Shown one piece after another: positions 1-55,671 of a stretch of 64,000 nucleotides of DNA. Under the pieces are notes generated by a model. That model was not told the DNA's origin. It searched no databases and saw nothing but the letters and a program-made list of their open reading frames with translations. The position numbers and the translations under genes were made by a program. The stretch is taken from positions 124,001 to 188,000 of the forward strand of contig JAGWWY010000003.1 of NCBI GenBank assembly GCA_018970145.1. Reading direction: 5' to 3'. This DNA is from Gammaproteobacteria bacterium. GTDB lineage: Bacteria; Pseudomonadota; Gammaproteobacteria; Steroidobacterales; Steroidobacteraceae. Position 1 is the stretch's first letter. The number at the start of each line of letters is the position of its first letter.

Positions 1-1142
1 GCGAAAAAGCCCACTTCGATGTCCGGTGCAGTCGTGACCGTTCCCCCAAGTGGCGGGAGTTGTCCGGCGATGCTTTTGATAAGCGTGGATTTACCGGCAC
101 CGTTTCGTCCAAGAATGCCGATACGCGCACCGGGTGGGATCGAGAGCGAAAAGTCCTCGATGATCAGCTGATCGCCGTATCCGGCAGAGATCCGATCGAG
201 TGAGACGAGTGGCACCGGAAGTTTGCGCGGTTCGAGAAATTGCCAGTCAAAGGTGTGTTCGACCCGCTGTGTGACCAGCGTCGGCAATCGTTCCAGCCAC
301 TTCAGCCGGCTTTGCGCTTGTCTAGCTTTGCTAGCCTTGGCGCGGAATCGCTCCACGAAGCTACGAACATGATCGGCTTCACGACGAATTTTTTCGTTCT
401 GCGCTTGCTGCTGAGCGAGTCTTGCTGCACGTTGTGTCTCGAAATCGGAGAAGTTACCGCTGTATGCGGCGAGTGTTCCAAGGCTGACATGTAGGACACG
501 ATTGATGACGGCATCGAGGAAGTCTCGATCGTGCGATACCAACAATAGCGTGCCTGGATAACTTTGTAGCCAACGCTCAAGCCATAGCACGGCATCGAGA
601 TCCAGATGGTTCGTCGGTTCGTCGAGCAGCAATACGTCGGAGGGACACATCAACGCCTTGGCGAGATTAGCTCGCATGCGCAACCCACCGGAGAACTCTT
701 TGATGGGTTGATCGATACGTTGGCTGTCGAAACCGAGTCCATCAAGTAGAGCGGCCGCTCGACTGCGCGCCGTATAGCCGCCGAGTTGATCGAAATCGGC
801 CAATGCTTGGGCGTGTTGGATACCATCTTCGCGACGTTCCGCTTCGGCGAGAGCGTACTCGCAGCGACGCAAAGTGACGTCGCCATCGATGACGTGCTCG
901 ATAACGGGACGATCAGAGTCGGGAAGCTCCTGAGTCACGGCAGCGAAGGTCAGGCCGCCCGGTATTTCGAGGGTGCCTTGATCCGGCGTCAGTTCGCCCT
1001 TGATGAGTGCGAGTAACGACGATTTGCCACTACCGTTACGGCCGACGATGCCGACCTTCTCGCCTCGCAGAATGCTGGCGGTGGCGGAATCGAGTAGGGG
1101 CTCAGGACCACGCCGAAGCCGAACATGACGCAAGTGAATCAC
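1..1142 (-). CDS. ABC-F family ATPase (YheS-like), 3' end cut by window edge
   Basis: Soluble tandem-ATPase protein of the ABC-F family; members act on the ribosome (translation factors or antibiotic protection) rather than in transport. About 380 codons are visible. A first Walker A, GRNGSGKSS, lies near residues 35-43. A DEPTNHLD-type Walker B with a following SHDR switch comes near residue 180-200. A charged linker follows, and a second Walker A, GRNGAGKST, lies near residue 350. The protein runs off the left edge before its second signature motif. The GTG start at 1142 is supported by a TAGAAT box exactly 7 nt upstream. The order of domains and the long linker resemble YheS more than Uup. 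It is divergent from the peptidase gene that follows. The family is sure; the exact subgroup is not. Confidence 0.9.
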   Translation of the reverse strand, partial: MIHLRHVRLRRGPEPLLDSATASILRGEKVGIVGRNGSGKSSLLALIKGELTPDQGTLEIPGGLTFAAVTQELPDSDRPVIEHVIDGDVTLRRCEYALAEAERREDGIQHAQALADFDQLGGYTARSRAAALLDGLGFDSQRIDQPIKEFSGGLRMRANLAKALMCPSDVLLLDEPTNHLDLDAVLWLERWLQSYPGTLLLVSHDRDFLDAVINRVLHVSLGTLAAYSGNFSDFETQRAARLAQQQAQNEKIRREADHVRSFVERFRAKASKARQAQSRLKWLERLPTLVTQRVEHTFDWQFLEPRKLPVPLVSLDRISAGYGDQLIIEDFSLSIPPGARIGILGRNGAGKSTLIKSIAGQLPPLGGTVTTAPDIEVGFF

Positions 1143-1155
1143 GGTCGCGATTCTA
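1143..1155 (-). promoter_or_regulatory. -10-like box for a leaderless ABC-F transcript
   Basis: On the minus strand TAGAAT (1155-1150) is followed by 7 nt and then the GTG start at 1142. No Shine-Dalgarno sequence is present. The arrangement matches other first genes in the window; that it drives a leaderless mRNA is inference. Confidence 0.5.
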
Positions 1156-1247
1156 CGCGACTGCTTGTGTATGCTCGTCACAGTGAGCATCGAAATTTTC
1201 CGCGACGCCATCTGCCCAGGGTGCCTCTTTGGGCAGCGACGCCATTG

Positions 1248-1937
1248 GTGACCGCTGTCGTGACTGCGGATGAGTTGACCGGGCGAACTCGCTCGCACGT
1301 CATCGACCTGCCTGCCGTAGGCTGCGTCTTGCATCGCGACGCCGTGCAGCCTTTTCTCGATCTGCGCGAGGCTGCCAGGGCAGCCGGTCACGACTTGGTC
1401 GCGGTTTCGTCTTTTCGCGATTTCGACCGGCAGCGTTTGATATGGAACGGTAAATTTCGCGGTGAACGAGCTGTACTCGATCGGCGAGGACAATTACTCG
1501 ATTTACGCGATCGATCGGTGGCGGATCGAATCAACGCCATCCTGTGCTGGTCGGCGATGCCCGGTGCCAGCCGTCATCACTGGGGCAGCGATGTCGATGT
1601 GATTGATCGCAACGCCGTGGCGTCTAGTACGGCTGTCGAACTCATACCGGAGGCCTATTCGGGTGACGGGCCTCACGCCGCCCTGAGTGCGTGGCTATCG
1701 GAGAACATGGACAGCTTCGGTTTCTTCCGACCGTATGTCAGCGAGCGCGCCGGTGTGAGTCCTGAGCCTTGGCACTTGAGTTATGCGCCGATCTCGGTGC
1801 CGGCTCTGCAACAGATGACGCCCGTAGTGCTGCTTGAGGCTTGGCGAGGAAGTGAGATCGACGGTGTCGAGTGGCTGATCGACAACGTCGACCTATTGCA
1901 CGCGCGCTACGTGAAAGACATCGATCTCAGAGTATGA
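1248..1937 (+). CDS. M15 family D-alanyl-D-alanine carboxypeptidase (VanY-like)
   Basis: Zinc peptidase of the VanY/M15B type, expected to trim the terminal D-Ala from peptidoglycan stem peptides in the periplasm. The zinc site is clear: an SRHHWGSDVD block at about residues 108-117 supplies the first His and Asp ligands, and EPWHL near residue 180 supplies the catalytic Glu and last His. The frame is open back to an ATG at 1125, but the extra N-terminal 41 residues look unlike the family and would overlap the divergent ABC-F start. I therefore chose GTG 1248; GTG 1260 is equally possible and neither has a good ribosome site. I see no convincing signal peptide, so localisation is open. It overlaps the convergent exonuclease gene by 11 bp. 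Confidence 0.8.
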   Translation: MTAVVTADELTGRTRSHVIDLPAVGCVLHRDAVQPFLDLREAARAAGHDLVAVSSFRDFDRQRLIWNGKFRGERAVLDRRGQLLDLRDRSVADRINAILCWSAMPGASRHHWGSDVDVIDRNAVASSTAVELIPEAYSGDGPHAALSAWLSENMDSFGFFRPYVSERAGVSPEPWHLSYAPISVPALQQMTPVVLLEAWRGSEIDGVEWLIDNVDLLHARYVKDIDLRV

Positions 1938-2703
1938 AATCCGCCAGCACCGGTGTGTGATCAGAGGGTCTCTCAGCGCGACGTGGTTCTTTGTCGATGC
2001 GAGCTGCGACGCACTTCTGCGCGAGCGCGCCCGAGGCGAGTATCAAATCGATACGTAAGCCCGCGTTGCGGCGAAAGCCAGCAGCGCGATAGTCCCACCA
2101 ACTGTACGATTTGTCCGGCTGTTCGAATTGCCGGAACACATCGACCAACCCCGTCTGCAGTAAACGCCGATAGGCATTCCGCTCTGGCTCACTCACGTGG
2201 ACGTGACCAACCCAAGCGGCTGGATCATGAACGTCGCGGTCCTCGGGGGCGATATTGAAGTCACCCAACACCACGATCTGTTGCTCGGTTTGCAGTAGCG
2301 ACTCCAGCCAGTGCTGCAGCGCCTCGAGCCAGCGCAATTTGTAGGCGTACTTATCCGAGTCAGGCGCTTGTCCGTTCGGAACGTAAAGGTTGATGACCAC
2401 GAGCCCAGCGGTACGAACAGCCAGTACACGCCGCTGTTCATCTTCAAAACCGGGGATGCCGGTCGCCAGCACGTCGATGGGGTGGCGTGACAGGATAGCG
2501 ACCCCGTTGTAGGTGCGCTGACCAATGAAGGCGCATTGATAACCCAACGCGCCGATCTCCGCTGCTGGGAAATCCGGGTCTGGAAGTTTGGTCTCCTGCA
2601 GGGCGATGACATCAGGCTTGCTATCGCCAACCCATGCGGCTAACTGCGGCAATCGAACCCGCAACGAGTTGACGTTCCAAGTAGCGAGGGTGATCTGTGA
2701 CAT
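1927..2703 (-). CDS. xthA: Exodeoxyribonuclease III
   Basis: Mg-dependent AP endonuclease and 3'-5' exonuclease of the EEP fold, acting in base-excision repair. At 258 residues it has the usual length. Conserved blocks in order are TWNVNSLR at the N-terminus (Asn ligand), LQETK (catalytic Glu, about residue 37), [15 protein letters not shown] (Asp/Asn, about 150), a Trp-rich stretch with RIDLIL, and SDHTPV at the C-terminus (Asp-His pair). A second, more distant exonuclease III gene lies at 20523. It is divergent from glutathione reductase with only 36 bp between the start codons. A TAACCT box stands 6 nt before the ATG. Confidence in family is high. Confidence 0.95.
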
Positions 2704-2715
2704 CTGCCTAGGTTA
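2704..2715 (-). promoter_or_regulatory. -10-like box for xthA (leaderless pattern)
   Basis: Minus-strand TAACCT (2715-2710) ends 6 nt before the ATG at 2703. The match to the -10 consensus is weak, and an AGG inside the gap could instead be a poor ribosome site. Confidence 0.3.
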
Positions 2716-2726
2716 AACGACCTGTG

Positions 2727-2739
2727 TACGATAGCGGTC
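2727..2739 (+). promoter_or_regulatory. -10-like box for gor (leaderless pattern)
   Basis: TACGAT at 2727-2732 is followed by 7 nt and the ATG at 2740. No ribosome-binding sequence is visible in between. Only 36 bp separate this start from the divergent xthA start. Confidence 0.45.
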
Positions 2740-4095
2740 ATGGCTAGAAAAAATTTCGACTTGATCGTCATCGGGGGCGGTAGTGGCGGCTTGGCGTGTG
2801 CACAGCGTGCTGCCCAGTACGGAGCCAAGGTGTTACTAGCTGAATCGGCCCGCTTGGGTGGAACCTGTGTCAATGTCGGCTGCGTTCCCAAGAAGGTGAT
2901 GTGGAACGCAGCGAATATTGCCGAAGCCGCCGCAGACGCGCGGTATTACGGATTCGACATCGAGTACCGCAGCCACGATTGGTCAGCATTGCGCCACGCG
3001 AGAGACGCCTACATCACCCGCTTGAACGGGATCTATGAGCGCAATCTTGCGGCAAAGAATATCGAGTTCGTCCGTAATCGCGCGAGCTTCGTTGCGTCGC
3101 ACGAGATTCGCATCGGCGATGAACTTTTCGAAGCACCACGGGTGGTGATTGCGACGGGTGGTCGTCCCATTCTGCCCTCGATCCCGGGCAGCGAATATGG
3201 CATCACCTCAGACGGCTTCTTCGAGTTGGATCATCTGCCGTCGCGCACTGCCATCGTGGGTGGTGGTTACATCGCGGTTGAACTTGCTGGTGTCTTGCAA
3301 GCCTTGGGCAGCAAAGTCACCCTGGCGTTTCGTCGCGATCGAGTGCTGCGTCATTTCGATTCGATATTGTCGGATACGCTCATGAAAATCATGCGTGACG
3401 AGGGAGCGACTCTCATTGATCACGCTGCGCCGCGCGCGCTGGAGCGCGATATCGACGGTTCGCTGCGGCTATTGTTCGATGACGGTCGACAGGCAGGTCC
3501 CTTCGATTCGGTGATCTGGGCCGTGGGTCGCGAGCCGTTGGTCGACAAGCTGGCGCTCGATCGTGCGGGTATCCGGCTAGATAGTCGCGGTTTCATACCG
3601 GTCGATCGTTATCAGGAGACAACGGTAGCTGACGTCTACGCCATCGGCGATGTGACGGGGCAGGCGCAATTGACCCCCGTTGCGATCGCCGCGGGTCGCC
3701 GCCTTGCTGATCGCCTGTGGGGCGGTATGGCAGGACGTCACCTGGACTACGGCAATATCCCAACGGTGGTCTTCAGCCATCCACCGATCGGCACCGTGGG
3801 TCTCAGCGAAAGCGAGGCTATCGATCGCTACGGTGCACACGACGTCAAGATATACACATCAGGTTTCGTACCGATGTATCACGCTCTGACGCCACGCAAG
3901 CCGCGTGCTGAAATGAAACTCGTGACGGTGGGCGCGGATGAGCGGATCGTCGGTTGCCACGTGATCGGTGCTGGCGCTGATGAAATGCTGCAAGGCTTTG
4001 CCGTCGCCGTACGTATGGGCGCAACCAAGCGCGATTTTGACGACACTATCGCCATCCATCCCACTAGTGCTGAGGAATTCGTCACGATGCGTTAG
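2740..4095 (+). CDS. gor: Glutathione-disulfide reductase
   Basis: Cytoplasmic flavoenzyme that uses NADPH to reduce oxidised glutathione. The FAD-binding GGGSGG motif is at residues 12-17. The redox-active disulfide lies in [13 protein letters not shown], with Cys43 and Cys48. The second dinucleotide domain carries [11 protein letters not shown] followed by an FRRDR basic segment typical of NADPH rather than NADH binding, which separates it from lipoamide dehydrogenase. The FAD site YAIGDVTG comes next. The C-terminal HPTSAEE holds the catalytic His of the partner subunit. Length (451 aa) matches the family. It stands alone, and its start is preceded by a -10-like box rather than a Shine-Dalgarno sequence. 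Confidence 0.97.
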
Positions 4096-4177
4096 GCGCG
4101 GGCGGTCGCTGTCCGCACGGTACACGCCCGGGTAGCCACCCGTTGACTTGCCGCAGCCCCGGACGCCGAATGACGCC

Positions 4178-4621: not shown

Positions 4622-4648
4622 TCCATTTTCTTTGGCTGAGGTTCTCTA

Positions 4649-5920: not shown

Positions 5921-5922
5921 GA

Positions 5923-6441: not shown

Positions 6442-6486
6442 GAACCGTTCTCCACTGAAGATGCTGTCAAAAGGCGTCGCATCATT

Positions 6487-7026: not shown

Positions 7027-7039
7027 GTCCGGCATCATA
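7027..7039 (-). promoter_or_regulatory. -10 box for the GNAT gene (leaderless pattern)
   Basis: Minus-strand TATGAT (7039-7034), 5 of 6 to the -10 consensus, then 7 nt, then ATG at 7026. It interleaves with the opposite-strand box of the photolyase gene. Confidence 0.5.
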
Positions 7040-7049
7040 AGATGTTGTC
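7038..7049 (+). promoter_or_regulatory. -10-like box for the photolyase operon (leaderless pattern)
   Basis: TAAGAT at 7038-7043 followed by 6 nt and the ATG at 7050; no ribosome site can fit between it and the divergent gene. Confidence 0.45.
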
Positions 7050-8645
7050 ATGACCAAGCAATCTAGAACGGCGGCCACACCTCAGCCCGTTCGTCATCTC
7101 GTTGTCATCCTTGGCGACCAACTCGACCGGGAGTCTGCCGCGTTTGACGGATTCGATCGCAAGCAAGATGTCATCTGGATGGCCGAGGTGATCGAGGAGT
7201 CGATCAAGGTACCGGTGAGCTTGCCGCGAATCGCGATTTTCCTGGCGTCGATGCGGCACTTTCGAGACGCCCTGCGTAGCGAGCGACTCGCGGTCGATTA
7301 TAGCGAGCTCGCTCTAGGCGAACCCTCGTTGGTCGACGCGTTGATAGGAGCATTGCAACGTCATCGGCCCACCAAGGTCGTAATGGTCGAGCCCGGTGAG
7401 TGGTCGGTACGGGAGAGCTTGCGAGCAGCCGTTGCACAGCAGGGTGTCGTCTTGGATGAACGAGCCGATCGCCACTTTCTTTGCTCGCACTCCGAGTTTG
7501 CAGAACATGCCCGCGGCCGAAAACAGTTACGCATGGAGTTTTTCTATCGCGAGATGCGACGTAAGCACGCTGTGTTGTTGGATGGCACCGGCAAGCCTGA
7601 AGGCGGCGAATGGAATTACGATGCCGAGAACCGTGGTAGCTTTGGCAAGACGGGGCCCGCTCATGTACGGCCGCCTGTTCGCTTCGGCCCCGATTCTTTG
7701 ACCCGACAAGTGATCGGTGAGGTTCAAAGACAGTTTCCGCAACACGTCGGTAAACTGGAACGCTTTGACTGGCCCGTCACTCGCGATCAAGCGCTGCTCG
7801 CATTACAAGATTTCATTGATCACCGGCTCGGTCATTTCGGTGAGTACCAGGATGCAATGTGGACCCGCGAGCCATGGCTTTATCACTCGCGTATTTCCGC
7901 GGCGCTCAATCTCAAATTGCTTCGTCCGCTCGAGGTGATCAAGGCCGTCGAGTCGGCATATCGGTCAGGCAAGGCGCCGCTTGCGGCGACTGAAGGGTTC
8001 ATTCGTCAGATTCTTGGTTGGCGCGAGTACGTTCGCGCAGTGTATTGGCATCTCATGCCGGGCTACGGCGAGCGCAACGGCATGTATGCCAATGAACCCC
8101 TACCGGCTTTCTTTTGGACGGCGACAACCGAGATGCAGTGCCTTGCCGACTCGATCGGACAAACTCTCGAGCTAGGTTACGCTCATCATATCCAGCGCTT
8201 GATGGTGACCGGGCTGTTCTGTTTGTTGCTCGGCGTCAACCCGAAAGAAGTCCACGCTTGGTACCTCTCGGTTTATGTCGACGCCGTGGAGTGGGTCGAA
8301 TTACCCAACACCCTCGGGATGTCTCAGTATGCTGATGGCGGGGTCATGGCTTCGAAACCGTACATCGCAACCGGTCGGTACATTGACAAGATGAGCAACT
8401 ACTGTCGTCAGTGTCGCTACAAACCTGCTGAGGCGACGGGAGAGGCCGCCTGCCCGTTTACGACGCTCTATTGGGATTTTCTGATTCGCCACGAAAAGGA
8501 GTTGTCGGGTAATCCGCGAATGATCATGCAGGTTCGTAACTTGACACGACTGACCGCAGAGCGCCGAGCGAGCATCGTCACGGCCGCACGCGATTTGCGT
8601 CGATCGCTGCGTCTTGCAGACAATGGTAGTAACCTAAGCCCATGA
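7050..8645 (+). CDS. FeS-type cryptochrome/photolyase (PhrB-like, (6-4) photolyase group)
   Basis: DNA repair flavoprotein of the iron-sulfur bacterial cryptochrome/photolyase family (FeS-BCP), whose characterised members repair (6-4) photoproducts with light. The N-terminal LVVILGDQLD block starts the Rossmann-like antenna domain. The C-terminal FAD domain carries EGFIRQILGWREYVR and QRLMVTGLFCLLLG. Four cysteines, C364, C452, C455 and C468, have the spacing expected for the [4Fe-4S] ligands, and WDFL follows the last one, so the cluster should be intact. Length (531 aa) is normal. It heads a run of seven genes with 1-4 bp overlaps. Confidence 0.93.
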   Translation: MTKQSRTAATPQPVRHLVVILGDQLDRESAAFDGFDRKQDVIWMAEVIEESIKVPVSLPRIAIFLASMRHFRDALRSERLAVDYSELALGEPSLVDALIGALQRHRPTKVVMVEPGEWSVRESLRAAVAQQGVVLDERADRHFLCSHSEFAEHARGRKQLRMEFFYREMRRKHAVLLDGTGKPEGGEWNYDAENRGSFGKTGPAHVRPPVRFGPDSLTRQVIGEVQRQFPQHVGKLERFDWPVTRDQALLALQDFIDHRLGHFGEYQDAMWTREPWLYHSRISAALNLKLLRPLEVIKAVESAYRSGKAPLAATEGFIRQILGWREYVRAVYWHLMPGYGERNGMYANEPLPAFFWTATTEMQCLADSIGQTLELGYAHHIQRLMVTGLFCLLLGVNPKEVHAWYLSVYVDAVEWVELPNTLGMSQYADGGVMASKPYIATGRYIDKMSNYCRQCRYKPAEATGEAACPFTTLYWDFLIRHEKELSGNPRMIMQVRNLTRLTAERRASIVTAARDLRRSLRLADNGSNLSP

Positions 8646-18416: not shown

Positions 18417-19870
18417 GTCGCGAGGCCGCCCACGCAGACGTATTTCATCTCCGTGTATTCATCGATACCGTAGCGCGAACCTTCACGCCCGAGTCCAGAT
18501 TCTTTCATGCCACCGAACGGTGCGACTTCCGTCGACATCAAGCCGGTGTTGACGCCGACGAGTCCGTACTCAAGCGCTTCTTGTACGCGCCAACTGCGCG
18601 CAAGATCGCGTGTATAGAAGTAAGCGGCGAGACCGAACTCCGTATCGTTGGCCATACCGATGACATCGACTTCGGTTTCGAACTTGAAGAGGGGGGCAAC
18701 CGGGCCAAAGGTTTCCTCGCGCGCAACCCGCATCTGCGCCGTGACATCCAACAGGATGGTGGGCTCGAAGAAGGTGCCACCGAGGGCGTGAGGCTTGCCG
18801 CCACAAGCAATGCGTGCGCCATGCTGCACAGCATCAGCGATATGTGCCTGAACTTTCTCGAGTGCCCGCTGATCGATGAGCGGCCCCTGATCCGTGGGCC
18901 CCTGCAAACCATCGCCCACACGCAGAGTGGATACTGCTTGCGCCAACTTCGCCGCAAAAATTTCGTAGACGCCGCTTTGCACGTAAATCCGGTTCGCGCA
19001 GACGCAGGTCTGACCGGTGTTTCGGTATTTGCTCGCCATCGCACCTTGCACGGCGGCATCGAGATCAGCGTCGTCGAACACAATGAAAGGTGCGTTACCG
19101 CCCAATTCCATCGATACTTTCTTGACGGTATCGGCACATTGGGCGATCAGCTTTTTACCTACGGCGGTCGAGCCTGTGAAGCTCAGCTTTCGAATCAGCG
19201 GATGGCGTGTCAGTTCGCCGCCGATTTGTTCGGCATCGCCGGTGATGACATTAAAGACACCGTCGGGTACGCCGGCGCGCTGCGCGAGCTCTGCCAAGGC
19301 GAGCGCCGAGAAAGGCGTTTGCGGTGCTGGTTTGCAAACGAAAGTACAACCTGCCGCCAAAGCGGGACCAAGCTTGCGTGTAATCATGGCGGCCGGAAAG
19401 TTCCACGGCGTGATCGCCGCCGCGACACCGACGGGTTGTCGCAATACCAACACGCGCGAATCAGCACGGAAAGTCGGAATTACATCGCCATAGATTCGCT
19501 TGCCTTCTTCGGCAAACCATTCGAGGAACGAGGCTGCGTAGGCAATCTCGCCTTTCGACTCTGCCAACGGCTTACCTTGCTCAGCGGTCATGATGATGGC
19601 TAGGTCGTTCGTATTGGCGAGCATCAAGTCGGCAAAGCGACGCAGAATTACCGCGCGTTCTTTAGCTGTTTTTCGCGACCAGTTCGATAAAGCGGCTGCT
19701 GCGGCTTCGATCGCGGTTTGGGTTTCGACAGCGCCCATCATCGGCACTTCGCCAACGACGGTGCCATTGGCCGGATTGCGAATAGCAATGCGTCGTCCGT
19801 CAGCTGCCGCCATCCAGCGACCGGCGATCCAAGCATCTTGCTTGAGTAGTGAAGCGTCTTCGAGTTTCAT
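18413..19870 (-). CDS. gabD: NAD(P)-dependent succinate-semialdehyde dehydrogenase
   Basis: Aldehyde dehydrogenase superfamily enzyme, closest to GabD, which oxidises succinate semialdehyde to succinate. Conserved stretches include [20 protein letters not shown] (cofactor and oxyanion Asn), [21 protein letters not shown] with the general-base Glu, the catalytic Cys289 in NTGQTCVC, and [11 protein letters not shown]. The C-terminal [25 protein letters not shown] is typical of GabD. Length (485) is normal. It overlaps pyrE by 4 bp. No gabT is nearby, so a GABA pathway is not implied by context, and related semialdehydes are possible substrates. Confidence 0.9.
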
Positions 19871-20505
19871 GCTGCTTTGATTCCATAACGAGCGCGATAC
19901 GCCTCGAGCGCGGCGCGTTGCTCAGCGGGTAAGTCGCTGGCGATGAGGTCTGCCAAAGTCAGCAGGCTGACACAACGCAAACCGAATTGCTGTTCGACCT
20001 CTTGTACGGCCGAACGATCGCCCGCACCACGCTCTTGTCGATCGAGTGCAAGTAAGACCGCTACGGGTTGCGCACCGGATTGTTTGATCAGATCGACCGA
20101 TTCGCGAACCGCCGTGCCTGCGGTGATGACGTCATCAACGATTACGACACGTCCGGCGAGCGCTTGCCCCACGATTAGCCCGCCTTCGCCGTGGTCTTTG
20201 GCTTCCTTGCGATTGAACGACCAAGGGACTCGGATACCGTGATGTTCTGCCAAGGCCACCGCCGTCGAAGCGACGAGTGGAATGCCTTTGTAGGCGGGGC
20301 CAAACAGCATATCGTAGTTCACGCCGGACTGAATCAAGGCAGCGGCATAACACTGACCCAGAATCGCGAGCGCTTCGCCATCGTTAAACAGACCGGCATT
20401 GAAAAAGTAGGGGCTCTCGCGCCCCGACTTCAGGGTGAACTGCCCGAAGCGCAGGGCTGAGCGGGCGAGAGCGAGGTCGATGAATCTGCGTTGATGGGAC
20501 TGCAT
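19867..20505 (-). CDS. pyrE: Orotate phosphoribosyltransferase
   Basis: Cytoplasmic enzyme of pyrimidine synthesis that joins orotate and PRPP to give OMP. Diagnostic segments are [16 protein letters not shown] near residue 20-35, [11 protein letters not shown] near 72, and the PRPP loop [13 protein letters not shown] near 122-135. Length of 212 is normal. It is the first gene of a five-gene minus-strand operon and is only 17 bp from the divergent exonuclease start. A TATGAT box lies 6 nt before the ATG, which argues for a leaderless message. Confidence 0.96.
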
Positions 20506-20517
20506 CTGGCTATCATA
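20506..20517 (-). promoter_or_regulatory. -10 box for pyrE (leaderless pattern)
   Basis: Minus-strand TATGAT (20517-20512) is followed by 6 nt and the ATG at 20505. The same bases read TATCATA on the other strand, so the -10 boxes of both divergent genes coincide. Confidence 0.55.
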
Positions 20518-20522: not shown

Positions 20523-21290
20523 GTGCGCGTCATCACTCTGAATGCCAATGGAATCCGTTCCGCTGCGAGCAAAGGCGCTTTCGCCTGGTTGCGGCAGCAG
20601 GGTGCCGATGTCATCTGTTTGCAAGAGACCAAGGCACAGGAGCACCAGTTAGCCGGTCATGACGTTGATTTGGAGGGCTATCACCGTCACTTTTTCGATG
20701 CCGAGCGACCTGGGTACTCCGGAGTCGCACTGTATTGCAGAGCCAAGCCCGACGCGGTGATACGCGGCTTTGGCGTACCGGAGTTCGACCGCGAGGGTCG
20801 CTACCTTGAGGCTCGCTTCGGCCAGCTAGCGGTGGTTTCGTTGTACTTGCCGTCCGGATCTTCGGGCCCAGAGAGACAAGCCTCGAAGTTTCGTTTTCTC
20901 GATGCCTTCATGCCGCATCTGCAGAAGCTCAAGCGTCGCAAGCAGGACTATATCCTCTGCGGCGATTGGAACATCGCCCACCGCGAAATTGATCTGCGCA
21001 ACTGGAAATCGAATCAGAAGAATTCGGGATTCCTGCCGGAGGAGCGTGCTTGGCTCGACGAACTGTTCGGACCAAGCGGCTTCGTCGACGCTTTCCGTGC
21101 CGTCAACGACCAGCCGCATGAATACACGTGGTGGTCCAATCGTGGACAGGCTTGGGCGAAGAACGTGGGCTGGCGTATCGATTATCAGATCGTGAGCCCT
21201 CGCTTGGCGGGTACTGCGACGGCGGCCTCGATCTACAAGGCTGAGCGCTTCTCCGATCACGCCCCCCTCACGCTCGACTATCAGCTGTGA
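20523..21290 (+). CDS. xth: Exodeoxyribonuclease III (second paralogue)
   Basis: AP endonuclease/3'-exonuclease of the exonuclease III family, 255 residues. [16 protein letters not shown] at the N-terminus, LQETKAQ (catalytic Glu), CGDWNIAH (Asp/Asn), and FSDHAPL (Asp-His) are in order. Its [22 protein letters not shown] segment marks a subgroup distinct from the XthA-like protein at 1927, so the two are ancient paralogues rather than a recent duplication. GTG start with a -10-like box 6 nt upstream. It is followed after 13 bp by an AmpG-like gene. Confidence 0.94.
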
Positions 21291-22946: not shown

Positions 22947-23578
22947 TCGAATCCTTCCTCAAATTTTTCGTCGTGTTCTTCCTCGTGGTCGAACCGATTT
23001 CGCTTGTCCCGGTTTTTGCGAGTCTCACCGAGGGCGCAAGCGCCCAGTATCGCCGTCGCATGGCGATCAAGTCCGTCGTTGTGGCGGGTCTGATCATCCT
23101 CGGCTTTGCGCTGAGCGGAGCCACTTTTTTGAGTGCCATGGGCATCAGTATCGATTCATTCCGAATTTTCGGCGGCTTGCTGCTGTTTCTTGTCGCTCTC
23201 GAAATGGTGTTCGCGCGCGAGTCCGGTACACGAACCTCGACGGACGAGCAGGCAGAGAGTCGGCGGCGTGCCGATATCTCCGTGTTCCCCTTGGCTTTTC
23301 CGTTCATGTCGGGCCCCGGCGCCTTGACCACCATCCTGTTGTGGTTCGGTCCGGTCTCCGTGATCGATCAGCCCGTCTTGTTTGCCGCTCTATCGGCAGC
23401 CGCGCTGCTGGTATTGGCGATTTCTTTGGGGATGATGTTGGCAGCAGGTCCGCTGATGCGTTTGCTAGGCGCAACCGGTACCAACGTCGTAAACCGTCTA
23501 CTCGGTGTGATTTTGGGCGCGCTCGCTGTTCAGTTCATCGTCGATGGCATTCGGGCGAGCTTCGGTATCACGCTCTAA
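22943..23578 (+). CDS. MarC family membrane protein
   Basis: Six-helix inner-membrane protein of the MarC family, function not established. Typical features over 211 residues: VEPISLVPVFASLTEG in helix 1, a central FPLAFPFMSGPGALTTILL motif near residue 115-130, and TNVVNRLLGVILGALAVQFIVDGI near the C-terminus. It overlaps the Rieske gene by 4 bp and shares a CTAA with the convergent trmB, so the two stop codons overlap. Confidence 0.92.
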   Translation: MIESFLKFFVVFFLVVEPISLVPVFASLTEGASAQYRRRMAIKSVVVAGLIILGFALSGATFLSAMGISIDSFRIFGGLLLFLVALEMVFARESGTRTSTDEQAESRRRADISVFPLAFPFMSGPGALTTILLWFGPVSVIDQPVLFAALSAAALLVLAISLGMMLAAGPLMRLLGATGTNVVNRLLGVILGALAVQFIVDGIRASFGITL

Positions 23579-24285
23579 CGCGAGATTCGTCGAAACGAAA
23601 GATCCCAAACGCCATGGCCCAGTCGTTGCCCTCGCCTCTCGAAGCGGGTTAGCGCGCGCCAAGTCGGTCGTGGTACGAAACCCTCGCTGCCACCTTGCTC
23701 TTCGCTGCGGTTGGAGAACGCGGGGCTCGCGCCGATCACCTCGCGCATCTGCAGAGCATAGGGCTCCCAATCGGTCGCGAGCTGTAGCAAGCCGCCCACC
23801 TTGATTTTCCGAGCCAACAACTCGACGAAAGTCGTCTGTACCAGCCGACGCTTGTGATGTCGCTTTTTGTGCCAAGGATCGGGGAACAGGATCAGCACTT
23901 CCGACAACGACGAATCGGCCAAATGCTGATCCAACACCTCGACGGCGTCATGACAAATCACTTTCAGGTTACGAAGACCCACTTCCTTGGCCTGTAGCAG
24001 GGCATGACCGACGCCTGCACGGTGTACTTCGATTCCGATAAAATCCCGTTCAGGATGCTGGCCTGCGTACTCCACGAGATTGTCACCGTTACCGAAACCG
24101 ATCTCGATGACTTTATCGGCGGCACGACCAAAGATATCGGTCAGTACGAGTTGTTCGCGCTTCTCGGGGTCGATGTCGATTCCGAAGCTGGGCCAATCGA
24201 GCTCGAGGGCGCGGCGTTGTGCCTCGGTCATTCGACCCGCGCGCAACACGAAGCTGCGGATTCGGCGGTGGGATTGCTCTGACAT
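23575..24285 (-). CDS. trmB: tRNA (guanosine(46)-N7)-methyltransferase
   Basis: SAM-dependent enzyme that methylates G46 in the tRNA variable loop. The FGNGD SAM motif lies near residue 65-69, LILFPDPWHKKRHHKRRLVQ (the TrmB signature with the catalytic Asp) near 140-160, and LATDWEPYALQM near 185. The N-terminal part RRIRSFVLRAGRMTEAQ is typical. The frame is open to an ATG at 24318, but ATG 24285 is the family start and has CATAAT exactly 6 nt upstream. 236 residues, normal length. Confidence 0.95.
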   Translation of the reverse strand: MSEQSHRRIRSFVLRAGRMTEAQRRALELDWPSFGIDIDPEKREQLVLTDIFGRAADKVIEIGFGNGDNLVEYAGQHPERDFIGIEVHRAGVGHALLQAKEVGLRNLKVICHDAVEVLDQHLADSSLSEVLILFPDPWHKKRHHKRRLVQTTFVELLARKIKVGGLLQLATDWEPYALQMREVIGASPAFSNRSEEQGGSEGFVPRPTWRALTRFERRGQRLGHGVWDLSFRRISR

Positions 24286-24297
24286 GGTGCAATTATG
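24286..24297 (-). promoter_or_regulatory. -10 box for trmB (leaderless pattern)
   Basis: Minus-strand CATAAT (24297-24292), 5 of 6 to consensus, then 6 nt, then the ATG at 24285, without a ribosome site. Confidence 0.5.
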
Positions 24298-25918: not shown

Positions 25919-25996
25919 GGGGCGAGACGTTAGCACGCGACGCGTTCTGGCGATGGCGGGCGGCTTGTGGCAACGTGAAAGCTTGACGCTGTTATG

Positions 25997-37890: not shown

Positions 37891-37902
37891 TATGATCCCC
37901 CT
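37891..37902 (+). promoter_or_regulatory. -10 box for the DUF3297 gene (leaderless pattern)
   Basis: TATGAT at 37891-37896, 5 of 6 to consensus, then CCCCCT, then ATG at 37903. No ribosome site is present. Confidence 0.5.
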
Positions 37903-38151
37903 ATGACATCAACTCATACACCGACTTTCCCCGACCGCCTCAGCGTGGACCCGACGAGCCGTCATTACGACGAGGCGATTCTCTCGCGTAGCGTCGGGAT
38001 TCGCCTCAATGGTGTCGAATACACCAATGTCGAGGAATACTGCATCTCTGAGGGCTGGATTCGCACAGCCATCGGCAAGACGTTGGATCGTCGTGGCAGG
38101 CCGTTGACGATCACTCGCAAGGGTGTTGTCGAAGCGTTCTACAAAGACTGA
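37903..38151 (+). CDS. DUF3297 family protein
   Basis: Small conserved protein of 82 residues, function unknown. FPDRLSVDPTSRHYDEAIL at the N-terminus, RSVGIRLNGVEYTNVEEYCISEGWIR in the middle, and GRPLTITRKGVVEAFY at the end are the recognisable DUF3297 pattern; the family's usual length is 80-85 residues. No catalytic motif is evident. ATG 37903 is chosen over one six codons upstream because it matches the family start and has TATGAT 6 nt before it. Confidence 0.88.
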   Translation: MTSTHTPTFPDRLSVDPTSRHYDEAILSRSVGIRLNGVEYTNVEEYCISEGWIRTAIGKTLDRRGRPLTITRKGVVEAFYKD

Positions 38152-39870: not shown

Positions 39871-39882
39871 AGTTTAATAATA
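39871..39882 (-). promoter_or_regulatory. -10 box for the DUF2178/XRE-VOC operon (leaderless pattern)
   Basis: Minus-strand TATTAT (39882-39877) followed by 6 nt and ATG at 39870. It lies within the Fur-like box described next. Confidence 0.5.
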
Positions 39883-43058: not shown

Positions 43059-43652
43059 TCAGGTCTTCGCGGGCTCAAAGAATGAGCGAACGTACGCAGT
43101 CACTGCACGAAACTTGGCTGGCACTTTCCCGAGTGCAGCGGAATCCGCTCGAGTCGGCTCGATCGGCAGCAGTAGCATCAACAACGCATAGATGAGCACG
43201 GCGGTGAAGCCGGAGAGTACCGTCATGATCACCAACACGATCCGTACCCAAACGACATCGATATCCGTGTACCGAGCGATACCCGCACAGATCCCCGCGA
43301 GAATCGCGCCTTCGTTGACTTGCTCGAGTCGCTTCGGCGGTGGCTGAGAATCACGCGGAATATATTCAGCCTTCGGTTCGTTGGGCTCTGAGGCGATGTC
43401 TCGCACTTCACCGACGTCAGCGAGGACGGCATCGAGCTCCATCAATGAAATCACCGTTTGTCCTGCGGGTAATCGCTGCAGGCAGCGATCTGCGATTGCC
43501 TGTTCGAGATCCGCCAGGATTTCATGCCGATCCGGATTCAGAGCAAGCGTGCGCGAGGCCTCCCCGAGGTAGTTTTCGAGTCGGACGAAGCTGGCTTCGT
43601 TCATCTGAACGGTGCTGCGGTTGAGGGACACCGTGATCGAAATACGTTTCAT
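43059..43652 (-). CDS. PspC domain membrane protein
   Basis: 197 residues. The N-terminal ~95 residues form a soluble domain with ASFVRLENYLGEASRTLALNP and EILADLEQAIADR, seen before PspC in many proteins. A PspC domain follows, with GAILAGICAGIARYTDIDVVWVRIVLVIMTVLSG (about residues 116-150) and a YALLMLLLP end of the second helix. PspC-type proteins sit in the inner membrane and take part in envelope-stress responses. The start overlaps the padR stop by 4 bp (ATGA), so the two are coupled; a longer frame reaching 43715 lies inside padR and is rejected. Confidence 0.88.
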   Translation of the reverse strand: MKRISITVSLNRSTVQMNEASFVRLENYLGEASRTLALNPDRHEILADLEQAIADRCLQRLPAGQTVISLMELDAVLADVGEVRDIASEPNEPKAEYIPRDSQPPPKRLEQVNEGAILAGICAGIARYTDIDVVWVRIVLVIMTVLSGFTAVLIYALLMLLLPIEPTRADSAALGKVPAKFRAVTAYVRSFFEPAKT

Positions 43653-43996
43653 GCGTGGGGGCTTCCGGTTTGAGCCGGCCCGAGTCGGGCCAAGGTTTGA
43701 TTGATGCGCTGCCAATAATCATCGAGCTGCGCGAGCTGCTGCAGTCCGGATTCGGTCAGCCGGTAGTATTTACGGGGGGGGCCGAACTCGGATTCACGCC
43801 ACTCGTAGTCGACCAATAACTCGCGGCGCAGCTTGCTGAGCAGCGGATACAGGGTGCCCTCTTGGGTGGCAAACACGGTACCCGCCAGCCGTTTAAGGAT
43901 GTCGGGGACATAGACTTGATCGCCGCCCACGATGCGCAACACGACAAATTCCAAGAGGCCTTTGCGTAGCGGGGCGAATTTCGAATCGGAGAACAT
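43649..43996 (-). CDS. PadR family transcriptional regulator
   Basis: 115-residue winged-helix regulator of the PadR family. APLRKGLLEFVVLRIVGGDQVYVPDILKRL gives the first helices. FATQEGTLYPLLSKLRRELLV is the recognition region with the diagnostic EGTLYPLL, and YEWRESEFGPPRKYYRLTESG is the wing. A C-terminal helix follows for dimerisation. ATG 43996 is the family start and has TATAGT exactly 7 nt upstream. It is followed by a PspC gene and faces a DUF4097-type gene across a palindrome that is its likely operator. Confidence 0.93.
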   Translation of the reverse strand: MFSDSKFAPLRKGLLEFVVLRIVGGDQVYVPDILKRLAGTVFATQEGTLYPLLSKLRRELLVDYEWRESEFGPPRKYYRLTESGLQQLAQLDDYWQRINQTLARLGPAQTGSPHA

Positions 43997-44009
43997 ACGT
44001 GCTACTATA
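43997..44009 (-). promoter_or_regulatory. -10 box for padR-pspC (leaderless pattern)
   Basis: Minus-strand TATAGT (44009-44004), 5 of 6 to consensus, 7 nt, ATG at 43996. It abuts the inverted repeat at 44011-44034. Confidence 0.5.
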
Positions 44010-44034: not shown

Positions 44035-44039
44035 AGTCC

Positions 44040-46412: not shown

Positions 46413-46433
46413 CTTCACTCGAGGTATGACGAG

Positions 46434-51260: not shown

Positions 51261-51266
51261 TCCCGA

Positions 51267-53087
51267 GTGCTGCTTCGATTTGATGACGTCTCGCTAGCCT
51301 TTGGTTCGCGCCCCTTGCTCGATCACGTCGATTTGAGCATCGGTGAGCGCGAGCGTGTTTGTATCGTCGGTCGCAACGGCGAGGGCAAGTCGTCATTGCT
51401 GCGTTTGGTTGCGGGTGTCACACCGCCTGATGATGGCGCGGTGTGGGTAAAGCCCGGTGCGCATCTTGCGATGCTCGAGCAGGATCTCGATACCATGACC
51501 GAGGCGAGCGTACTCGAGGTGGTGCAGGGTGGCCTTGCTGGCGCTCAAGGAGAGACTTGGGAACACACGCATCGAGTCGAGACGATTATTTCGCGTTTGC
51601 AGTTACCGGCGGAACAAGCCTTCGTAGGGCTGTCAGGCGGTTGGCGTCGACGGGTCATGCTTGGTCGGGCACTGGTGTCAGAGCCTGAGATCCTATTGCT
51701 CGATGAGCCAACCAACCATTTGGATATTTCGGCGATCGAGTGGCTCGAAGCGGTCATGCTCGAGTTTCGTGGCGCTTTGTTGTTCGTGAGTCACGACCGT
51801 ATGTTTGTCAATCGGCTCGCTACGCGAGTTGTTGAATTGGATCGCGGCAAACTGAGTTCGTGGCCGGGAAACTACGACGACTTCGTCACGAAAAAAACAC
51901 TGCAGCTCGAGATCGAAGCGAAAGCCAACGCGCTGTTCGACAAGAAACTGGCCGAAGAAGAAGTGTGGATACGCAAGGGTGTCGAGGCGCGGCGCACTCG
52001 TAACGAAGGTCGAGTGCGAGCTCTCAAAGAAATGCGCTCTGAGCGAAAATCACGCCGTGATCGTCTCGGGCAAGTCGAACTGGTCGTTACCGAGGCGACC
52101 GAGTCGGGAAAGCTGGTCTTTGAAGCCGAGCAAGCCAGTATTTCATTTGGCGATCACGAAGTGCTACGTGGGATCACGACGCGAATCCAGCGGGGTGATC
52201 GAGTCGGCATCGTCGGGCCGAATGGCGCCGGCAAGAGCACCTTAATCAAGTTGCTACTTGGCGAGCTGGAGCCCTCGAGCGGACGTGTCAAACGCGGTTC
52301 ACGACTGGAGATTGCCTATTACGATCAGCAGCGCGAACAACTGGATCTGGGCGCCTCTGTCTCCGACAACGTCAATGACGGTAATGCCTTTGTGCCGATC
52401 GGTGGTGAAAATCGTCATGTCTCGGGTTACCTGCGAGATTTCCTATTTAGACCTGACCAACTGCTGACACCGGCCAGTGCGCTTTCGGGCGGCGAGCGAA
52501 ATCGCTTATTACTCGCGCGCCTCTTTGCGCGTCCAGCTAATTTGCTCGTGCTCGATGAGCCAACGAATGATCTGGATATCGATACCTTGGAGTTACTTGA
52601 AGAGCTTGTTGCAAGTTTCGACGGCACACTGCTGCTCGTTAGTCACGATCGCAGCTTTCTCGATCGAGTGGTCACAAGTTTGTTGGTGCTTGAGGGCGAC
52701 GGTGGAGTCCGCGAGTTCGTCGGCGGTTGGACGGATTGGGAAGAGTGGAAGAGGAACAGCACTGTAGCAGCCAATATGGCGTCTGCCCGAAAGACGTCCA
52801 CGCTTGATTCGAAAGAGGATGGCGTGAGTGTGGCTCCGGTCGCACCCATCAAGAAAAAACGTCTGTCATATAAAGAGCAGCGCGAATTCGACGAGCTACC
52901 CGCGAAACTCGAGACGCTGGAGTCGCGCAAGTTGACGCTCGATGCTTTGGTTGCGGATCCGAACTTTTATGGTCGTGATCAGAACGAAATCAAAAACACC
53001 TTAGGTGAGTTACAAGCACTTGCTGAGCAGATCGATGCAGCGTATCTACGTTGGGAAGCGCTTGAAAAGTTGCAGGCGAGTGCCTGA
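51267..53087 (+). CDS. uup: ABC-F ATPase Uup
   Basis: Soluble tandem ABC ATPase, 606 residues, of the Uup branch that acts on the ribosome and in tolerance of replication problems. The first Walker A, GRNGEGKSS, lies at residues 35-43 and the second, GPNGAGKST, at 317-325. LSGGWRRRVMLGRAL and LSGGERNRLLLARL are the signature motifs, with DEPTNHLD and DEPTNDLD Walker B pairs. The linker between halves is the usual Arg/Lys-rich P-site-tRNA-interacting segment. The C-terminal ~80 residues form a coiled coil (YKEQREFDELPAKLETLESRK), characteristic of Uup. GTG start 6 bp after the hydrolase stop. Confidence 0.95.
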   Translation: MLLRFDDVSLAFGSRPLLDHVDLSIGERERVCIVGRNGEGKSSLLRLVAGVTPPDDGAVWVKPGAHLAMLEQDLDTMTEASVLEVVQGGLAGAQGETWEHTHRVETIISRLQLPAEQAFVGLSGGWRRRVMLGRALVSEPEILLLDEPTNHLDISAIEWLEAVMLEFRGALLFVSHDRMFVNRLATRVVELDRGKLSSWPGNYDDFVTKKTLQLEIEAKANALFDKKLAEEEVWIRKGVEARRTRNEGRVRALKEMRSERKSRRDRLGQVELVVTEATESGKLVFEAEQASISFGDHEVLRGITTRIQRGDRVGIVGPNGAGKSTLIKLLLGELEPSSGRVKRGSRLEIAYYDQQREQLDLGASVSDNVNDGNAFVPIGGENRHVSGYLRDFLFRPDQLLTPASALSGGERNRLLLARLFARPANLLVLDEPTNDLDIDTLELLEELVASFDGTLLLVSHDRSFLDRVVTSLLVLEGDGGVREFVGGWTDWEEWKRNSTVAANMASARKTSTLDSKEDGVSVAPVAPIKKKRLSYKEQREFDELPAKLETLESRKLTLDALVADPNFYGRDQNEIKNTLGELQALAEQIDAAYLRWEALEKLQASA

Positions 53088-53254
53088 GTTCGCGCGTCTG
53101 ACTCAAAAATACCGTGACGAACTGCTCATCGTAGTATAGACTCCTTGCTGAAAATTAAGGGTTGCGCGGTCAGCGCCCCCATTACTCGACTCGCAACTGA
53201 CCGCTACGGCTTTGTCCGTGTCGCGAGTCAAATCAACTACGGATCTCATCATCA
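53088..53254 (+). other. Long 5' region of rhlE with inverted repeats
   Basis: 167 bp without a gene. GCGGTCAG (53166-53173) pairs with CTGACCGC (53197-53204), and GACTCGC (53188-53194) with GCGAGTC (53223-53229). The two stems overlap, so the RNA could adopt alternative folds. The start codon has no clear ribosome site. Possible regulatory leader; a definite promoter could not be assigned. Confidence 0.35.
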
Positions 53255-54532
53255 ATGCAGTTTTCTGATCTCGGGCTCCAGCCTGAGTTGTTGCGTGCTG
53301 TCGCCGACAAAGGCTATGCCACGCCGACCCCCATCCAATTCAAGGCCATTCCTGCTGTTCTGTCCGGTCGAGATATTCTCGCGGGCGCACAGACGGGCAC
53401 TGGCAAGACAGCGGGCTTCGTGCTCCCTGTTTTACAGCGATTGAATGTCGCGAGTGGCCATGCGCCACGCGCACTCGTACTTAGTCCGACCCGCGAGTTG
53501 ACCGCGCAGATTGCCGAGAACGCCAAGGCATATGGACGCTACAAGAACGTCCGTTCTCAGGTGATTTTCGGCGGTGTCAGTGAAAAGCCCCAAATCGAAG
53601 GCTTGCGTCGCGGCTGTGACCTTCTGATCGCAACGCCCGGACGTCTGCTCGATCTCGTCGAGCAAGGCTACGCTGACTTGTCCAAGGTTGAATGCCTGGT
53701 TCTCGATGAAGCGGATCGCATGCTCGACATGGGCTTCATTCATGCCATCAAACGGATCATCAAGCTGCTGCCGGCACAGCGCCAGAACTTGATGTTTTCC
53801 GCCACCTATTCCGACGATATCCGGGAGCTGGCTTCAAAAATTTTGCGCAATCCCGTCTCGGTCGAAGTCGCCCCGAGAAACACGACGGCGGAGCGAGTCG
53901 ATCAAGTGGCGTTCAAGGTGCCGAAGGAGGCTAAGCGACACTTGTTGGTCCATCTATTTGATCATGGTGCGCAAGGCGAGGGGACGTGGCATCAAGTACT
54001 CGTCTTCACGCGAACCAAGCACGGTGCAAATCGATTGGCTCAACAACTCGAAGGAGCTGGCATCCGTGCTGCTGCGATCCATGGCAACAAGAGCCAGGGT
54101 GCGCGCGTGCGAGCTTTGGAGGATTTCAAGTCGGGTCAGATCGCTGCTCTCGTCGCAACGGAAGTTGCTTCACGTGGTCTCGACATCAAAGAATTACCGC
54201 AGGTCGTCAATTACGAGCTGCCGAACGTGCCGGAGGACTACGTTCACCGTATCGGTCGAACGGCCCGTGCCGGCGCGAGTGGTCGAGCGGTGAGTTTGGT
54301 GGCGCCGGATGAGGTCGGTCTATTGCGAGACATCGAAAAGACTATGGGTCGAGCTGTACCCGTGTTGCCGACACCGGCTTTCGAGGTCAAAACGCCGCAG
54401 CCGGTCAACCGCCCGACCGTTTCGCCGGGTAACCGAGCCGGATCAGCTCCGCGACCAGCAAATCACGCTGGTCGCCCTGGATCTCGATCACGCCGGCCCG
54501 GACGGTCCCGCCGCAGCCACAGCGCTTTTTGA
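53255..54532 (+). CDS. rhlE: DEAD-box RNA helicase RhlE
   Basis: ATP-dependent RNA helicase of 425 residues, involved in ribosome assembly or RNA decay. The Q motif [23 protein letters not shown] spans residues 3-30. [10 protein letters not shown] (motif I) follows near 47-56, then [13 protein letters not shown] at residues 151-154, SAT (motif III), and the helicase C domain with [21 protein letters not shown] and [11 protein letters not shown] basic Arg/Pro/Ser-rich tail of about 45 residues follows. Unusually, the last 128 bp overlap the convergent yciH gene, so the tail is encoded antisense to it. Confidence 0.95.
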
Positions 54533-54710
54533 GCTGCTTGGCGAGTTCTTCGAGCTGAGCTTGGGGCAGGGGCAGACCCGTGATGACGGAGACGCCCTTG
54601 CCGCCTCGGCCTGAGGTCTCGCGACCTACCCGTACCATCAACTTTCCCTGGCCCGCGAGTGGCGCGACGAGGGTGCCCGCCGCTGCTTTACGTTTTGCGT
54701 CAATGTTCAT
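54405..54710 (-). CDS. yciH: YciH/SUI1 family translation factor
   Basis: 101-residue member of the SUI1/eIF1 family, which influences start-codon selection. [23 protein letters not shown] (about residues 26-48), [42 protein letters not shown] at the C-terminus (in two adjoining blocks) are complete and typical. The whole C-terminal half lies antisense to the 3' end of rhlE, but since the conserved SUI1 pattern runs to the last residue, this gene is real. TAGACT stands 7 nt before the ATG; it is divergent from the cyclophilin gene by 43 bp. Confidence 0.92.
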
Positions 54711-54723
54711 GGTGTGAAGTCTA
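54711..54723 (-). promoter_or_regulatory. -10-like box for yciH (leaderless pattern)
   Basis: Minus-strand TAGACT (54723-54718) followed by 7 nt and ATG at 54710. 4 of 6 to consensus. Confidence 0.35.
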
Positions 54724-54741
54724 GGATAACCAAGAGCGCGC

Positions 54742-54753
54742 TAGAATCGCCCG
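54742..54753 (+). promoter_or_regulatory. -10 box for the cyclophilin gene (leaderless pattern)
   Basis: TAGAAT at 54742-54747, 5 of 6 to consensus, followed by 6 nt and ATG at 54754. No ribosome site. Confidence 0.5.
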
Positions 54754-55671
54754 ATGAATATCATTCGCGCGCGCCGGCTTCGTCTCGCCTCGATCGTGGC
54801 AGTGGCCTCATCGGCTCTTGGTCTTCAAGTCGCAGCGAGCGCTTCGCCTCCGCCCGGCACCATGGCGGCGGTCCTTGCCGCATCGTCCGCCGCAGATTGG
54901 CGCCCGCTCGATCCTGAAAAAACGCTCTATCTCGATCTCGAGAGCGGGCGAGTCATTTTCGAGCTCGCCCCGAATTTCGCGCCAGCGCATTTCGCCAATT
55001 TGCGCACCCTGACACAGGCAGGTTGGTTCGATGGGCTCAGCATCAATCGCGTGCAGGACAACTTCGTTACCCAGTGGGGTGACCCGGAGAGCAACAAGCC
55101 TTTGGGCGCTGCCCAAGCAAAAATTGCGCCGGAGTTCGAGCAGCGGTGGAATCACCGTTGGCGTATGACTCGCTTGCCGGATGGTGATGTCTACGCGCCG
55201 CAGGTGGGCTTCATCGAGGGCTTCGCGGCTGCGCTAGACGAACGCGCCGGCAAGGTCTGGCTGACGCACTGCTACGGTACGCTGGGTGTCGGGCGCGATA
55301 CCGCCGCAGATTCTGGGAATGCAGCGGAGTTGTACGCCGTGATCGGCCACGCGCCGAGACAACTCGATCGTAACATCACCGTGCTCGGCAGAGCGGTGCG
55401 CGGCATGGAGTTGTTGGCGGCATTACCACGCGGCACCTTGCCGTTGGGCTTCTATGCTAACGCAGAGGAGCGTATCCCGATCAAGCGTGTGCGTTTCGCC
55501 ATAGACCTTCCTCCCGCCGAGCGTATTCCTTTGGAGGTCCTGCGTACCGATACGCCGACCTTCGCCGCTTTGATCGAGTCGCGACGTAATCGACGCGATG
55601 AATGGTATCTGCAGCCTGCCGGCAAGATCGATCTTTGCAGTGTGCCCATCCCGGTAAGAGAGCGTCTTTGA
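54754..55671 (+). CDS. Cyclophilin-type peptidylprolyl isomerase, exported
   Basis: 305 residues. An N-terminal signal peptide (about 30 residues) suggests a periplasmic folding catalyst. The cyclophilin domain is recognisable from [54 protein letters not shown] (with the R.....Q core of the active site) and a [29 protein letters not shown] segment. The domain is interrupted and extended relative to PpiA, with an acidic insertion and a C-terminal part of about 60 residues of unknown role. It is followed after 13 bp by a flavin monooxygenase gene. Confidence 0.88.

Follow-up and report, generated by a model that had tools for sequence, protein, structure and literature searches.

TANNNT boxes close to the start codon and predicted leaderless genes, many in close head-to-head pairs, in a Steroidobacteraceae genome

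Why do many genes in one stretch of bacterial DNA carry a promoter-like hexamer almost directly before the start codon? The question is raised by a 64,000-nucleotide (nt) stretch, here called the window, of a draft gammaproteobacterial genome assigned to the family Steroidobacteraceae (assembly GCA_018970145.1, contig JAGWWY010000003.1, positions 124,001 to 188,000; G000:C7:124001-188000 in our numbering). The genome, G000, has 2.43 Mb (2,431,214 bases) in 23 contigs and is 94.65% complete; the best matches of the window's Xth protein, at 78-83%, are four metagenome-assembled genomes (MAGs) labelled Gammaproteobacteria or Steroidobacteraceae. An initial annotation had listed 13 gene starts in the window with a -10-like TANNNT hexamer ending 6 or 7 nt upstream, most of them without a Shine-Dalgarno sequence, and had read them as widespread leaderless mRNAs at a density notable for a gammaproteobacterium. 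From the genome-wide and comparative evidence below, it is highly probable that these boxes are -10 elements of vegetative-sigma promoters that give leaderless mRNAs, and that they are favoured in close head-to-head gene pairs.

Position of the hexamer across the genome

Because the 13 sites had been picked by the reader of the sequence, we tested the rule on genes chosen blind to upstream motifs. Genes were called with a 3-periodic Markov gene finder whose choice of starts depends solely on coding score and start-codon type; a finder based on codon usage only was dropped because it chose starts too far downstream. The G000 sample covered 1,144,682 bases (47% of the genome) and 916 genes, comprising 364 first genes (those that are divergent or that follow the preceding gene at a distance of 60 nt or more), 430 internal genes, 63 intermediate genes and 59 genes at stretch edges, which were excluded. 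We call a gene boxed if a TANNNT ends 6-8 nt before its start, which divides the first genes into 48 boxed and 316 unboxed, and we counted Shine-Dalgarno matches of at least 4 nt.

The initial annotation had proposed that leaderless genes should give a sharp positional peak over the whole genome, and that a flat distribution would speak against them. A peak is present at 6-9 nt: at offsets 5 to 10 the 364 first genes have 4, 22, 16, 10, 9 and 4 TANNNT hexamers, compared with a mean of 4.7 per offset (maximum 9) at control offsets 12-40 in the same genes. It persists when the window is excluded, with TANNNT at 6-7 nt in 29/336 first genes and a mean of 7.6 (maximum 14) in control windows of equal width. 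G073, a genome of the same genus (540 kb, 177 first genes), has 10, 7 and 5 hexamers at 6, 7 and 8 nt. At the same three offsets, the same pipeline gave 7, 4 and 1 in a sample of Deinococcus radiodurans MP1 (150 kb, 66 first genes), again a peak, and 0, 1 and 2 in a sample of Escherichia coli K-12 (250 kb, 110 first genes), where there is none.

Boxed genes also differ in their translation signals. A Shine-Dalgarno match precedes 5 of the 48 boxed and 130 of the 316 unboxed first genes (p = 2e-5), so the shortage of such sites first noticed at most boxed starts of the window holds genome-wide; among internal genes the counts are 1/16 boxed and 210/414 unboxed. No 16S ribosomal RNA was matched in the 94.65% complete assembly, and the anti-Shine-Dalgarno sequence is therefore not directly readable. 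ATG is the start codon of 44/48 boxed first genes vs 233/306 unboxed ones (p = 0.014). Within and around the boxes, position 5 of the hexamer is A in 28/48 (background 22%), and a G stands two bases upstream of the hexamer in 27/48 (background 28%).

How dense is the signal? Over control, the surplus of TANNNT at 6-8 nt comes to 9.5% in first genes, 2.6% in internal genes and 5.6% when all non-edge genes are pooled. With the window left out, first genes still show 7.9% (95% bootstrap interval 4.2-12.1%) and the whole set 4.8%. Boxes are about three times as frequent in the window itself as in the remaining sample (10/28 vs 38/336 first genes at 6-8 nt; 9/28 at 6-7 nt against the 29/336 elsewhere, Fisher p = 0.0009, post hoc), and the window is the richest of 12 blocks of 60-80 kb compared. 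In the accessible part of Zheng et al. 2011 (PMC3160421), leaderless genes occur in 15/239 gammaproteobacterial genomes, mostly of Xanthomonadales and Legionellales, at 3.0-5.7% of genes. At about 5% of all genes, and about 8-10% of first genes, G000 is ordinary for a leaderless-using gammaproteobacterium. The idea of leaderless mRNAs is well supported by the peak, by the E. coli and Deinococcus controls, by the loss of Shine-Dalgarno sites and by persistence in relatives, while the words "widespread" and "notable" density were overstated.

The expression mode is a known one. Leaderless genes of Actinobacteria and Deinococcus-Thermus have the same hexamer and spacing, and D. radiodurans MP1 peaks alike in our pipeline. 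Schmidtke et al. are said to have made a differential RNA sequencing (dRNA-seq) study of Xanthomonas in 2012. The "TA-led" genes of Zheng et al., as far as the available text describes them, are alike, with the first T of TANNNT about 12 bp before the start and the middle three bases low in information at high guanine-plus-cytosine content (PMC3160421). Leaderless genes are more frequent in Actinobacteria and Deinococcus-Thermus (on average 19.2% and 39.4% of genes, respectively, in the same partial text). By contrast, the host lineage studied here, with Steroidobacteraceae or Gammaproteobacteria MAGs as its nearest named matches, is not named in that part of the paper, our figure of about 5% comes from a cruder count, and the strong concentration in close head-to-head pairs described below is not treated there (the word "divergent" occurs 0 times in the accessible text; PMC3160421). 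In the literature searched, whose coverage is incomplete, we found no description for this lineage. The present data would extend leaderless expression to an uncultured gammaproteobacterial lineage, with comparative evidence of a kept box and spacing, and suggest that Shine-Dalgarno models alone are insufficient for start-site annotation in it.

Close head-to-head pairs and persistence in relatives

Head-to-head genes with little space between them are common in G000: starts lie -25 to 50 bp apart in 27/120 divergent pairs, and the E. coli sample has 1/32. Among the genes of close pairs (gap -30 to 50 bp), 19/54 are boxed at 6-8 nt, with 0-4 in control windows; the concentration is also seen without the window (13/46, controls 0-2) and in G073 (10/28, controls 0-3). 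Divergent pairs with wider gaps give 7/56 (controls 1-5) and 14/118 (controls 2-8). Several close pairs are boxed on both sides in the gene listing, and we claim no coupling beyond independence. Among the matches listed in our literature search, of incomplete coverage, there was no survey tying leaderless genes to close head-to-head pairs; the link is worth testing.

The extreme case is pyrE/xth, two genes with 17 bp between their starts and a single TATCATA that can be read on both strands, 6 nt from each start. This 17-bp layout with 6/6 boxes is repeated in four named relatives (L039-L042). In a series of 80 named relatives, a box lies 5-9 nt before xth in 15/23 of those with a divergent pyrE within 60 bp, in 1/28 of those with a wider pyrE gap, and in 1/29 of those where none turned up within 400 bp; as the species are related, the cases counted are not independent of each other. 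The series, boxed mostly when the genes are close, is a natural one in which to ask why genes switch initiation mode. With one -10 readable both ways, the element has the form of a symmetric bidirectional promoter and is predicted to fire in both directions.

This layout invites comparison with bidirectional bacterial promoters that have a symmetric -10, reportedly described by Warman et al. in 2021, and with a divergon of the alphaproteobacterium Bradyrhizobium liaoningense. The former, in the accessible part of a later paper, have two opposite-strand starts beside or within one shared -10 (Warman et al. 2026, PMC12825309); pyrE/xth differs in that both products are predicted leaderless mRNAs of conserved genes 17 bp apart, and "leaderless" occurs 0 times in that text. 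In the latter, csoR-cueA, the divergent -10s partly overlap and one mRNA is leaderless by rapid amplification of cDNA ends (RACE); as the available text has it, the other mRNA has a 42-nt leader, and the case is a single regulated locus (PMC5057107).

Persistence was assessed mainly in G136, a genome of the same genus for which we had 35 ortholog pairs (median protein identity 74%) with 18 first genes, of which 7 are boxed in G000, all seven in the window. Six of the seven boxes are kept within 1 nt in G136, while 20,000 shuffles of its upstream DNA gave at most 3; among the unboxed genes, 1/11 has a box there. The flanks of pyrE and xth, which share one element, are alike in 23/29 and 18/29 bases because they are coding. 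Without these two genes, 4/5 boxes are kept (shuffles, at most 2), in flanks that are alike in only 10-14 of 29 bases: the box of 2703 is TAACCT/6 in G136 (the figure after the stroke gives the distance to the start in nt; flank 10/29), that of gor at 2740 changes from TACGAT/7 to TAGGAT/6 (14/29), that of 25918 is TAACTT/7 (11/29) and that of 57988 is TAGCGT/6 (12/29). Although they come from few genes, all in the window, these counts (6/7, or 4/5 without pyrE/xth) suggest that box and spacing are under selection. The box of 54710, a gene not called by the finder, is TAGACT/6 in G136.

The closer relative G073 keeps 15/16 boxes, in flanks that are 90-91% identical. The pyrE/xth boxes are kept in both genomes, as is that of 54754 (TAGAAT/6 in each; in G136 the start is 13 codons further out); in G073 the hexamers of 7026 and 24285 are identical, and the boxes of 7050, 37903 and 43996 are kept too. 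In more distant relatives a switch of initiation mode seems to occur. Of 30 family genomes, counting G000 and G073, 9 carry a box 5-9 nt before gor and 11 carry TATCAT or TATGAT at 30-42 nt, 8 of these 11 with a Shine-Dalgarno match of at least 4 nt. The 54754 box is found at 5-9 nt in 6/26 family genomes.

Mechanism and alternatives

In the mechanism that we favour, TANNNT would be the -10 of a vegetative-sigma promoter, and transcription would begin at the start codon's first base or no more than 1-3 nt away. The mRNA would have neither leader nor Shine-Dalgarno site, and the ribosome would bind the 5'-terminal start codon; such leaderless initiation is very likely at the boxed genes, judging from their upstream sequences and relatives. 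This mode would serve about one in ten first genes, or about 5% of genes, alongside ordinary Shine-Dalgarno genes. It would be used most where head-to-head starts are at most 50 bp apart, possibly because there is little room for two promoters and two leaders, and at pyrE/xth one symmetric -10 in the 17-bp gap would point both ways. A bolder proposal, which we put forward tentatively and hold to be somewhat less probable than its opposite, is that leaderless initiation is an architectural device: it would allow conserved housekeeping genes to stand head to head with starts down to 17 bp apart, -35-independent and sometimes symmetric -10s with an upstream G would fire both ways, and spacing would both predict and drive the switch in mode (for xth, leader at a wide gap and leaderless at a narrow one).

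Several observations weigh against leaderless promoters as the explanation, or limit it. There is no -35 enrichment at boxed sites, where a TTGACA match of at least 4 at spacing 16-18 occurs in 8/48, the same as at the control spacing of 24-26 (8/48), nor is there an excess of the T that belongs to a TG extended -10 (19%). Boxes placed 20-36 nt before starts, as for leadered mRNAs, do show a -35, at spacing 17 (16/61 vs 4/61 control). The predicted leaderless promoters of this genome thus seem to depend on the -10 together with the G upstream of it, and the missing -35 is what departs most from a classical sigma-70 promoter. Only 9 of the 21 genome-wide TATNAT-6-ATG sites coincide with a finder-chosen start, in 3-kb loci that may cut genes. 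No TANNNT was found at 6-9 nt in the small samples from G136 (9 first genes), G113 (30) and G025 (2). As to persistence, the 39870 box is not kept at its offset in G073; the 7050 box was not found in G136, where the match does not begin until residue 14; and trmB has an exact TANNNT at 5-9 nt in only 1/30 family genomes. TANNNT at 12-40 nt is also kept in G073 (33/47, p = 0.09), and since the flanks there are so similar, G073 adds little on conservation.

The same boxes can be read in other ways. That they are true -10s followed by very short leaders of about 2-8 nt, with a +1 that is slightly upstream or variable, is an unlikely but serious possibility. Such near-leaderless mRNAs would suit the shoulder of the peak at 8-9 nt (10/364 and 9/364) and the variation among relatives, where most xth boxes lie at 6 nt and some at 8 or 9, and gor boxes at 5, 6, 7 or 9 nt. 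The distance from a -10 to +1 is usually 6-7 nt, and given this distance the mode of 6-7 nt would place +1 on the start codon; that boxed starts are mostly ATG also argues for a leaderless start. An improbable reading makes TANNNT a translational signal within a leader, A/U-rich and recognised by ribosomal protein S1 or by the 30S subunit, with no promoter involved. It could draw on the boxed sites that have no -35 hexamer and on the small excess in internal operon genes (16/430 boxed vs a control mean of 5.0), which also detracts from a purely promoter-based account. However, first genes show 3-4 times the excess of internal genes, the hexamer and its upstream G obey -10 grammar, close head-to-head pairs are strongly preferred, and one symmetric element can serve both strands.

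Coincidence, combined with a reader's selection of common AT-rich hexamers, is refuted for the set and has a very small chance of being the explanation, although individual sites are open to it. The window is indeed a chosen and unusually rich patch, and chance alone would account for about 13 of the 48 boxed first genes, which tempers the leaderless account as well. Against coincidence stand the peak outside the window, the flat E. coli control and the persistence in G136.

Sites in the window and distribution in the class

Eleven of the 13 listed starts have an exact TANNNT 6-7 nt before ATG or GTG (Table 1), where 0.28 matches would be expected by base composition for 13 sites and two offsets, with the reservation that the sites were chosen by the reader. 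The two that fail are 24285, whose CATAAT/6 is -10-like but not TANNNT, and 1142, which is CGG and no start codon. The gene finder left 4 of the 11 good sites uncounted: it placed starts at 7038 rather than 7026 and at 54862 rather than 54754, and it missed 37903 and 54710 as genes. It added 25918 (TAACGT/8), 57988 (TAGCGT/6) and a doubtful 37074 (TACTTT/6).

Table 1. Boxes in the window and the genes they precede (positions within the window)
Feature	Position	Strand	Gene or remark
TATCATA, shared symmetric -10	20511..20517	both	TATCAT 20511-20516 (+) for xth; TATGAT 20512-20517 (-) for pyrE
pyrE, orotate phosphoribosyltransferase, predicted leaderless	19867..20505	-	TIGR00336; TATGAT/6
xth, exodeoxyribonuclease III family, predicted leaderless	20523..21290	+	TIGR00633; GTG start; TATCAT/6
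TAACCT, -10-like	2710..2715	-	6 nt before second exodeoxyribonuclease III gene (1927-2703)
TACGAT, -10-like	2727..2732	+	7 nt before glutathione reductase gene gor (2740-4095)
TATGAT, -10-like	7034..7039	-	7 nt before ATG 7026, GNAT acetyltransferase; overlapped by alternative start 7038
TAAGAT, -10-like	7038..7043	+	6 nt before photolyase-related gene (7050-8645)
CATAAT, weaker -10-like, not TANNNT	24292..24297	-	6 nt before trmB (23575-24285)
TAACGT, -10-like, outside the initial list	25927..25932	-	8 nt before 25918, phosphorylase superfamily
TATGAT, -10-like	37891..37896	+	6 nt before 82-codon open reading frame at 37903
TATTAT, -10-like	39877..39882	-	6 nt before start 39870
TATAGT, -10-like	44004..44009	-	7 nt before PadR-family regulator (43649-43996)
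TAGACT, -10-like	54718..54723	-	7 nt before SUI1/YciH-type gene (54405-54710), PF01253
TAGAAT, -10-like	54742..54747	+	6 nt before cyclophilin-type peptidyl-prolyl isomerase (54754-55671), PF00160
TAGCGT, -10-like, outside the initial list	57995..58000	-	6 nt before alcohol dehydrogenase family gene (56864-57988)

Beyond the genus, the leaderless-type trait is patchy across the class and not unique to G000. Among 147 genomes of the order, TATNAT-6-RTG exceeds the reversed pattern in G000 (27 vs 6), G073 (26 vs 4) and G136 (34 vs 6), with little excess in other family members (G112, 15 vs 14; G079, 30 vs 26). A comparison of TATNAT-6-ATG with TATNAT-12-ATG, which is weak in AT-rich genomes, gave p < 0.01 in 10 of 114 genomes of the class, where about 1 is expected; the family appears twice, and G000 (21 vs 5) and G010 (20 vs 4) are among the six lowest p-values. 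Small samples have TANNNT counts at 6, 7, 8 and 9 nt of 1, 0, 0 and 1 in 40 first genes (G010) and 3, 2, 0 and 0 in 28 (G096). Named loci of mixed lineages (L051-L118) show no clear peak (14, 4 and 6 at 6-8 nt of 478 first genes; other offsets 1-15). Another set of named loci, L039-L050 (5, 3 and 2 at 6-8 nt of 105 first genes), was set aside as an independent test of the peak because every locus had been fetched around xth.

Clear excesses of TATNAT-6-ATG over TATNAT-12-ATG were seen in the class members G187 (12/0), G181 (7/0), G275 (37/8), G214 (29/8) and G261 (16/3). Two trmB matches, L274 (G159) and L276 (G048), are each listed with one in-frame TGA. The two exodeoxyribonuclease III paralogues of the window, 1927-2703 (-) and 20523-21290 (+), each stand head to head with a neighbour and each have a leaderless-type box. 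Genes of the SUI1/YciH type encode bacterial relatives of a translation-initiation factor that may affect start selection, and the one at 54405-54710 (-), head to head with the cyclophilin gene, is itself predicted to be leaderless. An internal operon gene for a short-chain dehydrogenase, starting at 8642 with a 4-nt overlap with its neighbour, has a TAACCT/6 that is kept in G073 and G136; this may be an extra internal leaderless promoter or may reflect conserved codons of the upstream gene.

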